Source: Thalassobaculaceae bacterium (lineage in GTDB: Bacteria > Pseudomonadota > Alphaproteobacteria > Thalassobaculales > Thalassobaculaceae). Taken from it: a stretch of DNA of 53,734 bases. Made by a program: the position numbers and the translations under genes. The notes beneath the pieces were generated by a model. That model did not search any database. It was not told the DNA's origin and was given only the letters and a program-made list of their open reading frames with translations. Positions 43,933 to 47,343 of the stretch are shown here, piece by piece (within the stretch, counting starts at the first letter, position 1; each line of letters opens with the position of its first letter). The DNA lies in assembly GCA_029212785.1 (NCBI GenBank), contig JARGOG010000029.1, positions 1-53,734 on the forward strand. Reading direction: 5' to 3'.

Positions 43933-44271
43933 ATGACCTACATCGTCAACGAGAAGTGCATTAAGTGTAAGTACACGGACTGTGTCGAGGTCTGCCCGGT
44001 AGACTGCTTCTACGAGGGCGAAAACATGCTGGTCATCCATCCGGACGAGTGCATCGACTGCGGTGTGTGCGAGCCGGAATGCCCGCCCGAGGCGATCCTC
44101 CCGGATACAGAGCCCGAGGCCGAGAAGTGGCTGGCGATCAACGCCGAGTACGCCGATACTTGGCCGAACATCACCCGCAAGATCGATCCGATGCCCGAGG
44201 CCGACAAACTTCAGGACGAAGCTGGCAAGTACGAGAAGTATTTCTCCGCCAATCCGGGCGAGGGGAGCTGA
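43933..44271 (+). CDS. fdxA: 7Fe ferredoxin FdxA
   Basis: A 112-residue ferredoxin with clusters bound by '[18 protein letters not shown]' and '[16 protein letters not shown]'. The cysteine spacing (C9, C17, C21, C25, C40, C43, C46, C50) fits the 3Fe-4S plus 4Fe-4S Azotobacter-type FdxA, found in nearly all Alphaproteobacteria. It is a soluble low-potential electron carrier. It lies between the TerB-like gene and carD; an FdxA-CarD neighbourhood is common in this class. Confidence 0.97.
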
Positions 44272-44623
44272 ACTACATCAGCTTCAGTGGTGTTTTTCGT
44301 CCACGACTTTAAGATTCCTGTCACAAACATCTGATCTAAAGGCGTCGTCGGCTATGGTGGCGCCTTCCGCCCGCGTTTCCGCGTGACTGCTACCATTCTG
44401 CCCGTTTTTGTGATATGGTTCACAACATCGCGCCGGTTTGGAGAGCTTAGTGGGCCGGCGTATCCCCGCAAAACGTGGGACCATCGACGAAACGACCTGA
44501 TGTTTCGCCCGTTTTTGGTGTTGACCGTTCATTTATCGGCGTCTTTGGAGGTCGAAACGATGAAACGGCAATCGATAGGTGTCTGTGCGCTATGAGAAAC
44601 GGTTCGGTGGTGGAGAGGGCGGA
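44272..44623. other. 352-bp leader region upstream of carD
   Basis: No gene is visible. The region holds the CRP-type palindrome at 44408-44425 and a possible promoter element TTGACC at 44521-44526 without a convincing -10 partner. It is less GC-rich than its surroundings, in keeping with a regulatory leader. Short frames here (for example one beginning at 44383) have no recognisable content. Confidence 0.5.
44408..44425. promoter_or_regulatory. CRP-type palindrome upstream of carD
   Basis: 'TTGTGATATGGTTCACAA' is a perfect inverted repeat TTGTGA-N6-TCACAA, matching the CRP core TGTGA-N6-TCACA. It lies about 200 bases upstream of the carD start and 137 downstream of fdxA. A cAMP-making cyclase is at 4.7 kb in this window. 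FixK/FNR sites differ (TTGAT-N4-ATCAA). Confidence 0.55.
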
Positions 44624-45148
44624 ATGGTAGAGGACGTGGAAAAATCACCCATGACGAAAAAGAACGAGTTCAACACCGGTGACTTTGTCGTGTACCCGAC
44701 GCACGGTGTTGGCCTGATCAAGGGGACGGAAACCCAGACCATCGCGGGGACCGAACTGGAACTTCTGGTGATCGACTTCGAGCAGGATCGCATGACCCTG
44801 CGTATTCCGCTCACCAAAGCCAAGACCAGCGGTTTGCGCCGGCTGAGCAGCCGTAAGCAGATGGATGCCGCGATCGCCAAGCTGAAAGGCCGTGCGCGCG
44901 TCCGCCGGACCATGTGGAGCCGCCGCGCCCAGGAATACGAAGCCAAGATCAATTCCGGCGATCCGGTCTCGATCGCCGAAGTCGTCCGCGATCTGCGCCG
45001 TTCCAGCAATCAGGCGGAGCAGTCCTACAGCGAGCGGCAGATGTATCAGGCCGCGATCGACCGTCTGGCGCGGGAATTCGCCAAGATCGAAAAGATCGAC
45101 GAAGAGGCCGCCATCGACCGTCTCGAGAAACTGATGGACGCTGCCTGA
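44624..45148 (+). CDS. carD: CarD-family transcription regulator
   Basis: A 174-residue protein. The N-terminal RNA-polymerase-interacting (CarD/TRCF RID) domain is at about residues 16-70 ('FNTGDFVVYPTHGVGLIKGT', 'MTLRIPLTKAKTSGLRRLSS'), followed by a helical DNA-binding domain. CarD stabilises open complexes at rRNA and other promoters. The ATG at 44624 has GGAGAGGG upstream; an ATG at 44651 is an alternative giving 165 residues. A CRP-type site lies about 200 bases upstream. A GC-rich terminator follows at 45189. Confidence 0.94.
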   Translation: MVEDVEKSPMTKKNEFNTGDFVVYPTHGVGLIKGTETQTIAGTELELLVIDFEQDRMTLRIPLTKAKTSGLRRLSSRKQMDAAIAKLKGRARVRRTMWSRRAQEYEAKINSGDPVSIAEVVRDLRRSSNQAEQSYSERQMYQAAIDRLAREFAKIEKIDEEAAIDRLEKLMDAA

Positions 45149-45188: not shown

Positions 45189-45208
45189 GGGCGGCCCTCG
45201 GGCCGCCC
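45189..45208 (+). terminator. Hairpin terminator after carD
   Basis: Perfect 8-bp stem 'GGGCGGCC' / 'GGCCGCCC' with loop CTCG, followed by GTTTGCG. It lies 40 bases after the carD stop and separates carD from the next gene. Confidence 0.7.
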
Positions 45209-45306: not shown

Positions 45307-45408
45307 CGGCGACTCGGGTGACCGGCCCTTGGCGCCGCGTTGACGCGCGACTCGGAAGTGGTATTGGGGTGGGATGACTCGTTTCACCGAGCGCGAGGCC
45401 TTCAGGCC

Positions 45409-46266
45409 GTGATCCCGACCTCTCCAGTCGCCTCCGACCGTCATGTCGACCTGTCCGGCGCCCGGCGCGTTTGGGCCGTTGGCGCGCTCTTCGGCGAGGC
45501 GGATCTGCTCTGCGACCTGCATGACGCGATCGCCACCCGGTTCGAGCCGGGGGACCGCATCGTCTATCTCGGGAACATGCTCGGCGGCGGAGATGTTCGG
45601 GCCACCTTGACCGAACTCATGCGGTTCCGCGCCCTGGTCATGGCGCAGCCGCCGCTCTATCTGCCCGAGGACATCGTCTGCCTGCGCGGCGCACAGGAGG
45701 AGATGTGGCACAAACTGCTGCAGATCCATTTTGCGCCGAAGCCGAAGGACCTGCTTGCCTGGATGTTGCAGCGCGGCGTCGGGGCCGTGCTGGCGGCCTA
45801 TGGCGGCGATGCCAATCAGGGCTTCGCCGCCGCCGACGAGGGCATGGTCGCGCTGACCCGCTGGACCGCCCGCCTCAAGTCCGCGGTTCTAGGGACGCCG
45901 GGCCATCAGATGTGGTTCAACCAGATCCGGCGCTTCGCCCATACCGGCAAGGGCGGTGTTCTGTTCGTGAATACCGGGGTCGAGCCGTCCCGGGCGCTGC
46001 ATGACCAGCGGGACGCCTTCTGGTGGGGCTCTCAGGGCTTCGAGCGCGTAGGAACAGAAGGGATCGAAGGCTTTACCAAGGTGGTGCGCGGCTATGATCC
46101 GGCCGGCCGCGGAGTCACGGAAACCGACCGGACCCTATGCATTGACAGCGGCTGCGGCCGAGGTGGTGCGCTGAGTGCCGCCTGCCTGAGCCCAGACGGA
46201 CGGCTGATCGACTGGGTCGAGGTGGCTCCGAGCGATAGCGTCGTACCTATCCGGGCGGCCCGCTAA
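45409..46266 (+). CDS. Metallophosphoesterase-like protein lacking all metal ligands
   Basis: A 285-residue protein from GTG 45409 (GTG 45358 or TTG 45340 would lengthen it). The whole chain follows the order of PPP-type phosphoesterases, but each metal motif is altered. G-D-x-H-G reads 'GALFG'; G-D-x-x-D-R-G reads 'GNMLGGG'; R-G-N-H-E reads 'RGAQE'; V-H-A-G reads 'VNTG'; G-H-T reads 'GYD'. The intervening framework is retained ('RIVYLG', 'VEPSRALHDQ', 'CIDSGCGRGGALSAACLSPDG'). It should therefore fold like a phosphatase but not be catalytic. It lies between carD and rpoH. Function unknown. Confidence 0.75.
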   Translation: MIPTSPVASDRHVDLSGARRVWAVGALFGEADLLCDLHDAIATRFEPGDRIVYLGNMLGGGDVRATLTELMRFRALVMAQPPLYLPEDIVCLRGAQEEMWHKLLQIHFAPKPKDLLAWMLQRGVGAVLAAYGGDANQGFAAADEGMVALTRWTARLKSAVLGTPGHQMWFNQIRRFAHTGKGGVLFVNTGVEPSRALHDQRDAFWWGSQGFERVGTEGIEGFTKVVRGYDPAGRGVTETDRTLCIDSGCGRGGALSAACLSPDGRLIDWVEVAPSDSVVPIRAAR

Positions 46267-46458: not shown

Positions 46459-47343
46459 ATGGCCTATATCGACGACCCGGAGACCCAGCGCGCCAATATC
46501 GCCTTCATCAAGGCGTCGATGAAGGAGCCGCTGCTCGAGCGTGAACACGAATTCGATCTGGCCCGCCGTTGGCGCGAAAAAGGTGACGAACGGGCTCTGC
46601 ACGAGTTGGTTCGGTCCTACACCCGGCTGGTGGTGTCCACGGCGAGCAAATTCCGCAACTACGGCCTGCCCATCGGCGACCTCGTCCAGGAGGGCAATGT
46701 CGGACTGATGCAGGCCGCCGCCCGGTTCGAACCGGAGCGGGAGGTGCGGTTCTCAACCTATGCCGGATGGTGGATCCGATCGGCCATCCAGGACTACATC
46801 CTGCGCAACTGGTCGATCGTGCGCACCGGCACGACGGCGGCGCAGAAATCGCTATTCTTCAACCTCCGTCGCCTGCGGGCCAAGATCAACAGCTCGCTCA
46901 GCGGTTCGATGACCGACGAGGGACGGATGTATGTCGCCCAACAGCTTAATGTCGACCGCCGCGAGGTCGAGGCGATGGAGATGCGGCTGTCCGGCCACGA
47001 CCAGTCGCTGAACGCGCCGATCTCCGAGGCCGGTGAAGACGACTGGCAGGACTTCCTGGCGGATGAGCGGCCGAGCCCGGAAGCGGTCGTCACCGGCATG
47101 CGGGATGCGTCCACCCGGTCCAAGTGGTTGGCGGATGCCCTGTCCGAGCTGTCGCCGCGTGAGCGCACGATCATTGACCAGCGGCGGCTGAGCGAAGAGG
47201 GGGCGACCCTGGAAGAGCTGGGCCGGGAGCTTGGCGTCTCCAAGGAACGGGTCCGCCAGCTCGAGCACCGGGCACTGATGAAGCTGCGAGACCGTCTGGT
47301 CCACCGGGTCGAGCGTACCTCGGACCTGCTGCTGGACGCCTGA
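46459..47343 (+). CDS. rpoH: RNA polymerase sigma-32 factor RpoH
   Basis: A 294-residue heat-shock sigma factor. Region 2 includes 'LVQEGNVGLMQAAARFEPER' and the -10-recognition stretch 'RFSTYAGWWIRSAIQDYILR'. The RpoH box 'QKSLFFNLRRLR' is present, and region 4 has 'ELGRELGVSKERVRQLEHRA'. The ATG at 46459 follows CAGGGGGCGG; a GTG at 46435 is less likely. It would drive htpG in this same window through the CTTG-type promoter at 36.1 kb. Upstream region 46267-46458 is less GC-rich and includes a hairpin and the palindrome TACGTACGTA. Confidence 0.97.
   Translation: MAYIDDPETQRANIAFIKASMKEPLLEREHEFDLARRWREKGDERALHELVRSYTRLVVSTASKFRNYGLPIGDLVQEGNVGLMQAAARFEPEREVRFSTYAGWWIRSAIQDYILRNWSIVRTGTTAAQKSLFFNLRRLRAKINSSLSGSMTDEGRMYVAQQLNVDRREVEAMEMRLSGHDQSLNAPISEAGEDDWQDFLADERPSPEAVVTGMRDASTRSKWLADALSELSPRERTIIDQRRLSEEGATLEELGRELGVSKERVRQLEHRALMKLRDRLVHRVERTSDLLLDA

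Follow-up and report, generated by a model that had tools for sequence, protein, structure and literature searches.

A conserved family of putative PPP-type pseudoenzymes encoded next to carD in Alphaproteobacteria

Introduction

Why would a bacterium keep a protein that has the frame of a PPP-type metallophosphoesterase and none of the residues that make such an enzyme work, and why is its gene found beside that of a global transcription factor? The question is raised by a gene in the window analysed here, a stretch of 53,734 nucleotides (contig JARGOG010000029.1, positions 1 to 53,734 of the forward strand) from the Thalassobaculaceae bacterium assembly GCA_029212785.1. A sequence-only reading of the window had proposed that this protein, encoded between CarD and RpoH, has lost every metal-binding motif of the PPP enzymes while keeping their framework, and that it is retained for a non-catalytic role. 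The two-metal ligands and the catalytic histidine of PPP enzymes are, in order, D, H, D, N, H, H and H. To our knowledge, pseudophosphatases have been described mainly from eukaryotes.

The neighbour makes the question a wider one. In the parts of the literature available to us, CarD (CdnL) is described as binding RNA polymerase and supporting rRNA and other transcription (PMC5324124; PMC8407463), and a supporting role at many housekeeping promoters of the Alphaproteobacteria has been proposed for it (PMC8407463). During starvation of Caulobacter, CdnL is cleared via SpoT and ClpXP; a (p)ppGpp-sensitive adaptor for this turnover was proposed and left open by the authors in the portion of their paper that we could consult (PMC11034885).

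Results

The gene, which we call pseudo-PPP, occupies positions 45,409-46,266 on the forward strand of the window, running without interruption from a GTG at 45,409 to a TAA ending at 46,266 and encoding 285 amino acids. The claim that the protein keeps the full PPP framework was borne out by structure prediction. Its AlphaFold2 model (pLDDT 91.6, pTM 0.90) matched 176 PDB chains at E <= 0.001 in a structure search, and among the 50 of these 176 that were listed, the titles were those of PPP-type, ApaH-type or PnkP phosphatases, the few exceptions being titles that name a complex only (7sqc, for example). With VIA-align, the three best scores among the PDB chains compared all fell on PPP enzymes: 5vjv (Z 20.2 over 226 residues, 3.6 Å), 4j6o (Z 20.2, 222 residues, 3.3 Å) and 2qjc (Z 20.1, 198 residues, 2.7 Å). 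A profile of the protein family described below gave in hhalign a probability of 99.8% (E 1.5e-27) against nine alphaproteobacterial canonical PPPs, and in hmmsearch it reached PDB entry 2qjc at E 2.4e-6; a phmmer search of the PDB with the window protein gave no match at E <= 1. Model, VIA-align and hhalign thus agree on a PPP fold in which the five motif loops follow one another in the usual order.

Its matches place the window protein in a large family without a name, conserved in many alphaproteobacteria. Strong matches (E 4.3e-49 or better) were found in 134 of 385 sampled alphaproteobacterial genomes; 148 of the 385 matched in all, 14 of them only weakly (E 1e-14 to 1e-10), and those of the 14 that were examined carry canonical PPPs. 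Closer to the window, the family occurs in 25 of 61 near genomes (its own included) and, within the order, in 20 of 36, and the identity of members to the window protein falls as low as 33%. In a sample of the phylum, whose out-of-class share is unstated, 8 of 299 genomes matched at E <= 1e-20, all of them the window's own genome or genomes of the same family or class. Plasmid records held no family match, and the window's own genome no paralogue at E <= 1.

None of the Pfam or NCBIfam models tested names this family. The window protein matched no Pfam family at E <= 10, PF00149 included, and scored 11 bits against the NCBIfam ApaH model NF001204, whose cut-off is 176. Among 57 aligned members, PF00149 was matched by two (best E 0.077), the related PF14582 by nine (best E 0.0062) and NF001204 by two (best E 0.0015), whereas all five of the 14 canonical relatives that were run against Pfam exceeded the PF00149 cut-off. 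DUF6280 was matched by six of the 57 (best E 0.0006), and the Pfam families matched numbered 24 in all, most in one member; we take the DUF6280 and single-member matches to be due to chance.

The five motifs of the window protein are changed exactly as had been read from the sequence, and we counted the corresponding residues after aligning 14 canonical PPPs with the members found by the same searches, 174 once near-identical ones had been collapsed; the seven PF00149 loci of the window's own genome (L001-L007) were excluded. The former GDxHG is now GALFG (residues 25-29; forward strand, as for all five motifs, 45,481-45,495), its Asp being present in none of the 174 members and its His in 131. 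The former GDxxDRG is GNMLGGG (residues 55-61; 45,571-45,591); the Asp at position 56 survives in 8 of 174 members, with Asn there in 159, and Gly59 is nearly invariant (173 of 174). The former RGNHE reads RGAQEEMW (residues 93-100; 45,685-45,708), with the Asn of GNHE kept in four members and its His in two, Gln96 replacing the latter in 163, and Glu97 present in all 174. The former VHAG is VNTG (residues 187-190; 45,967-45,978), where 78 members have His, 42 Asn and 32 Ser, and the former HGHT is RGYD (residues 227-230; 46,087-46,098), with His229 in 6 members and Arg227 in 161.

All seven active-site residues are present in 14 of the 14 canonical PPPs, whereas family members keep none (29 members), one (70), two (68), three (5) or four (2) of them. 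Loss at all sites, as first proposed, therefore holds for the window protein, which keeps none of the seven, and for the 29 members of which it is one; it does not hold for the family as a whole, in which the GDxHG and VHAG histidines are frequent. The altered state as such is family-wide, and because it is common to 174 distinct members the loss is not a matter of chance.

A tree of 104 thinned members (less than 62% mutual identity, at least 230 amino acids) and the 14 canonical PPPs, built with the seven active-site columns left out, parts the two groups by a single branch with an SH-aLRT of 100, in what is a quick tree with two long branches flagged. Within the 104 members, the two histidines of GDxHG and VHAG undergo at least 15 and at least 27 changes. 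The loss of the metal centre across the family is thus stepwise and not complete, and the simplest account would be that the key ligands were lost once, with the spare histidines eroding. Alignment, tree and hhalign together join homology to an enzyme with loss of its catalytic residues across orthologues.

Other residues have become fixed. Glu97, also present in the canonical enzymes, is found in all 174 members, and Gly59, Glu98, Gln96 and Arg227 in 173, 170, 163 and 161, respectively. Asn56, Gly59, Glu98 and Arg227 are specific to the family at a weighted frequency of at least 0.91, as are Trp22, Asp49, Arg74, Trp152, Thr153 and Trp205 at one of at least 0.93, and 23 columns are invariant across the 57 aligned members. 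The loop at residues 93-102 is the most conserved of the five that once formed the active site, with a mean entropy of 1.00 against 1.99 for residues 20-272 and 1.40-1.73 for the other four. Given the newly fixed residues and this low-entropy loop, a pocket that has been reused would fit better than one that has been abandoned. Some metal binding at the old site is conceivable in the family, two of its histidines surviving in many members.

The gene is also under selection. Between the four species compared, the window's and three others of its genus, dN/dS (NG86) was 0.094-0.179 in the six pairs, ratios that are rough since dS exceeds 1 in three of them, and nowhere near the value of 1 proposed beforehand as the mark of a decaying gene. 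In the same four species the sigma-32 gene gave 0.020-0.060 and fdxA 0.028-0.051, and carD had a dN of 0 in all six pairs over 171 codons (44,633-45,145), with a synonymous divergence of 0.42-0.74, so that pseudo-PPP is constrained, yet the least so of the four genes. The few stops inside the family matches (9 + 1 rows) fall in the last 30 or so bases of the match, at its C-terminal end, where the proteins concerned are shorter.

In the window, carD (44,579-45,148, forward strand; its start may instead be the ATG at 44,624 or 44,651) ends 260 bp upstream of pseudo-PPP. Its name comes from Pfam (PF21095, PF02559), the NCBIfam scan of the protein having returned no family at E 1e-5. Before carD lies the ferredoxin gene fdxA (43,933-44,271, forward strand; NF045490, 162.3 bits against a cut-off of 135), giving the order fdxA-carD-pseudo-PPP. 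Downstream, after 192 bp, comes a sigma factor gene (46,459-47,343, forward strand), whose product scores 385.6 bits against NF005693, "RNA polymerase factor sigma-32" (cut-off 315), but 299.1 against the RpoH equivalog TIGR02392, below its cut-off of 323.1; it is therefore a sigma-32 relative rather than a plain RpoH, and we take it to be, perhaps, a second, alternative RpoH type. Of the two neighbours named by the sequence-only reading, CarD thus stands as described, and RpoH has to be replaced by a sigma-32 factor below the RpoH cut-off.

The same division emerged when the loci of the family were compared. Of the 172 loci that could be tested for carD, 154 have it upstream in the same orientation. 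This count leaves out two loci at contig ends (L060, L157) and scores as adjacent genome G294, in which a carD of the same orientation is found some 1.6 kb upstream, outside the sequence retrieved for the locus. For a downstream sigma-32 gene of the same orientation the figure is 67 of 167 testable loci, seven having been left out here. Synteny is thus general on the carD side and not on the sigma-32 side: carD and fdxA are the neighbours that stay constant, rather than a carD/rpoH pair, the sigma-32 neighbour is secondary, and the sigma-32 factor as a generally constant partner was rejected. The order fdxA-carD-pseudo-PPP could be traced for 130 of the 174 members, not every locus being long enough to reveal it, and no carD was found within 1-2.3 kb on each side of the 14 canonical PPPs. 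In 150 of 153 loci the distance from carD to the likely start of pseudo-PPP could be tabulated: it is at most 20 bp in 12, at most 150 bp in 86 and at most 300 bp in 142, and exceeds 1 kb in four adjacent loci, where there is room for another gene between the two.

In the remaining 18 of the 172 testable loci pseudo-PPP does not lie downstream of an adjacent carD. Twelve of these 18 were read; their contexts differ and they share no other constant neighbour, L125 and L200 having neighbours that we took by eye for ffh and rpsP. Of 19 genomes first scored as having no upstream carD, 17 hold a carD, which lies close upstream in G294 and is convergent and adjoining in G284. Two loci (L147, L169) keep the sigma-32 gene and not carD. 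In genomes G391 and G314 (L222 and L226) the sigma-32 gene stands directly after carD and pseudo-PPP is elsewhere, a natural relocation. In G128 (L141), fdxA immediately precedes pseudo-PPP and no carD was detected in between; this genome's sole CarD match, a divergent one (43% identity), is on another contig.

Genomes without pseudo-PPP often hold carD (21 of 32 and 48 of 60 in two samples). In the carD loci of such genomes, fdxA precedes carD in 42 of 69, and a sigma-32 gene follows it on the same strand within a span of about 1.5 kb in 17 of 69, so that the proximity of carD and sigma-32 does not require pseudo-PPP; a sigma-32 gene directly after carD is the arrangement to be expected if the slot were simply empty. 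Genes for a TerB-domain protein and an M48 peptidase also recur around pseudo-PPP, as fdxA does, and the gene order could for this reason have been inherited passively. Two genomes of 1.5 Mb labelled as the same genus (G001, G005) have neither carD (E 1e-10) nor pseudo-PPP, the others being of 4.7-5.6 Mb.

Between carD and pseudo-PPP, the window carries a promoter-like element, TTGACG-N16-TATTGG (45,340-45,367, forward strand), with no T at the last position of its -10 box. It is nearly unchanged in an alignment of the four gene-holding species of the window's genus (TATTGC in one). Of 127 intergenic stretches tested, four contain the pattern TTGAC-N15-19-TAT, each of them from this genus, and the other 123 do not; shuffled controls gave a mean of 0.68 and a maximum of 3. 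A scan for the sigma-70 consensus found no promoter; it requires a final T in the -10 box, which the box identified by eye does not have. In the same genus a GC-rich hairpin, likewise found by eye, follows carD (arms 45,189-45,196 and 45,201-45,208). Hairpin and element together imply that pseudo-PPP probably has its own promoter in the window's genus, and they make its co-transcription with carD doubtful. Promoters without a T at the last -10 base are, according to the part of PMC8407463 available to us, of a type proposed to be CarD-dependent in Alphaproteobacteria, and the element at 45,340-45,367 is a candidate for such a promoter.

The C-terminal degron tail of CarD was also compared. It ends in AA or VA, in raw counts, in 139 of 154 cases with pseudo-PPP adjacent, in 11 of 16 with pseudo-PPP elsewhere and in 45 of 69 without it. 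On a FastTree phylogeny of 227 of the 239 CarD rows (identical bodies entered once), the nine independent pairs starred on the tree had the tail changing the same way in 1.2 and the opposite way in 0.1 cases on average (sign test, median p 1), and a link between this tail and pseudo-PPP is not supported once relatedness is controlled. Two CarD proteins from genomes of the same family without pseudo-PPP (L236, L237) end in an acidic tail rather than in AA or VA.

Discussion

The retained, non-catalytic role first suggested for this protein finds support, as far as sequences can speak, in the conserved loss of the active site, in the PPP fold and in the dN/dS of 0.094-0.179; catalysis is presumably absent, and the order of the genes points to a functional link with CarD. 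We propose that pseudo-PPP is a non-catalytic PPP pseudoenzyme that has lost its metal centre and become a regulatory partner of CarD-dependent transcription, a proposal to which we give an even chance. The ancestor would have been a PPP-type metallophosphoesterase of Alphaproteobacteria, similar to ApaH or to bacterial Ser-Thr phosphatases, whose two-metal centre was lost early in this alphaproteobacterial branch, probably once. The protein would then have been kept under purifying selection, non-catalytic and with a remodelled pocket, as a small partner protein that regulates the housekeeping transcription dependent on CarD; the face that had been the active site may bind CarD, RNA polymerase or a nucleotide-like ligand, and this binding may tune the level or the activity of CarD. 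In its most specific form, the family would be a dedicated, ligand-responsive CarD partner whose dead site binds a ppGpp- or Ap4A-like nucleotide, or a surface of CarD or RNA polymerase, and so adjusts the transcription of rRNA and housekeeping genes that depends on CarD; it might then be the (p)ppGpp-sensitive adaptor proposed for Caulobacter CdnL. So detailed a version we consider a long shot, although descent from a nucleotide or phosphoprotein phosphatase and a dead, conserved pocket beside carD would suit an adaptor of this kind.

The tie to CarD is one of gene order, and pseudo-PPP may instead be a retained non-catalytic protein with another task, such as binding nucleotides or phosphoproteins or regulating a canonical PPP, for which the window's own genome offers a counterpart (L003, whose ORF matches PF00149 and has three of the canonical PPP motifs in their usual order), its gene order being merely inherited. 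That fdxA-carD stands together in 42 of 69 genomes without the family, and that 18 of 172 loci persist without an adjacent upstream carD, speak for such a role, whereas an adjacency to carD kept in 154 of 172 loci despite divergence down to 33% identity, against 67 of 167 for sigma-32, speaks for the CarD partnership; we regard the unrelated role as a serious possibility, if a less probable one. Service to the downstream sigma-32 factor, for instance by modulating its level, would explain why that gene follows in 67 of 167 loci and why L147 and L169 keep it without carD, but it leaves 100 of the 167 testable loci with no such gene downstream, and 17 of 69 family-less genomes have sigma-32 after carD within about 1.5 kb all the same, which makes this reading quite improbable.

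The His of GDxHG in 131 of 174 members and that of VHAG in 78, the two members with four of the seven residues and several polar residues that are invariant or nearly so might be thought to sustain some residual catalysis, with one metal or by an unrelated mechanism using E97, E98, D202, H166 and R227; yet the first Asp is gone from 174 of 174 members and the second from 166, a minimum of 15 and 27 changes is needed for these two histidines on the tree of 104 members, and the window protein keeps none of the seven, so that we think this improbable. Decay of the gene, or an artefact of annotation, was rejected and has in our judgement a negligible chance: the GTG start and the total loss of motifs in the window protein could be read in its favour, but the dN/dS of 0.094-0.179, the 23 invariant columns in 57 members and the confident fold argue against it, and the few stops sit near the C-terminal match ends of shorter proteins. 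The partnership with CarD-dependent transcription is our best reading.

The control of CarD levels in starvation is, by the account in the part of PMC11034885 seen by us, an open question, for which a carD-adjacent and apparently non-catalytic protein would be a concrete candidate. That pseudo-PPP is conserved and usually adjoins carD suggests that a former enzyme has taken on a regulatory role. The case also shows that a protein family can occur in one third of the genomes sampled from a class (134 of 385) and still lack a Pfam or NCBIfam model. In the open-licence literature, which was partly surveyed, we found neither a bacterial PPP pseudophosphatase nor a phosphatase-like gene beside carD or cdnL, and the papers found there on CarD with rpoH and Azospirillum and on CdnL yielded no link to a phosphatase; the words phosphatase and phosphoesterase are absent from the Caulobacter cdnL paper.

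Among known systems, the canonical bacterial PPPs (PF00149) are the closest in fold, with Z scores of 20.2 for RLPH2 (5vjv) and for the phosphatase domain of PnkP (4j6o) and of 17.8 for lambda phosphatase (1g5b). They share with the family the order of the five motif loops and the residues L34, G55, G94, E97, W118, G123, Y131, H166, Q200, W206 and G228. The differences lie in the active site, where they have the metal ligands and the catalytic His of which the 174 family members keep 0-4 of seven, in the PF00149 match, which the window protein lacks at E <= 10, and in W22, D49, R74, W152 and R227, which are specific to the window family. The symmetrical Ap4A hydrolase ApaH (9ojd, 2dfj) and the related 2qjc also resemble the window model in fold (Z 17.2-20.1), and the C-terminal part of the window protein aligns weakly with the ApaH model NF001204, but at 11 bits against the cut-off of 176, and the active-site residues of ApaH are missing from the family. 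By the features tested, pseudo-PPP is thus classed as a relative of the PPPs that is neither an active PPP enzyme nor an ApaH. Further afield, PHLPP2 belongs to the PPM/PP2C phosphatase family. According to the parts of the reports available to us, this pseudophosphatase likewise has the fold of a phosphatase and an active site that has diverged, and activity of PHLPP2 was not found (PMC12002173; PMC13358185). It is an animal protein, whereas pseudo-PPP is a bacterial family of PPP fold. The bacterial pseudokinases, in the portion of PMC12599244 that we could consult, are conserved pseudoenzyme families of bacteria as well and differ in the class of enzyme from which they derive. Set beside these systems, pseudo-PPP is, on the sequence evidence, a new family of pseudoenzymes.
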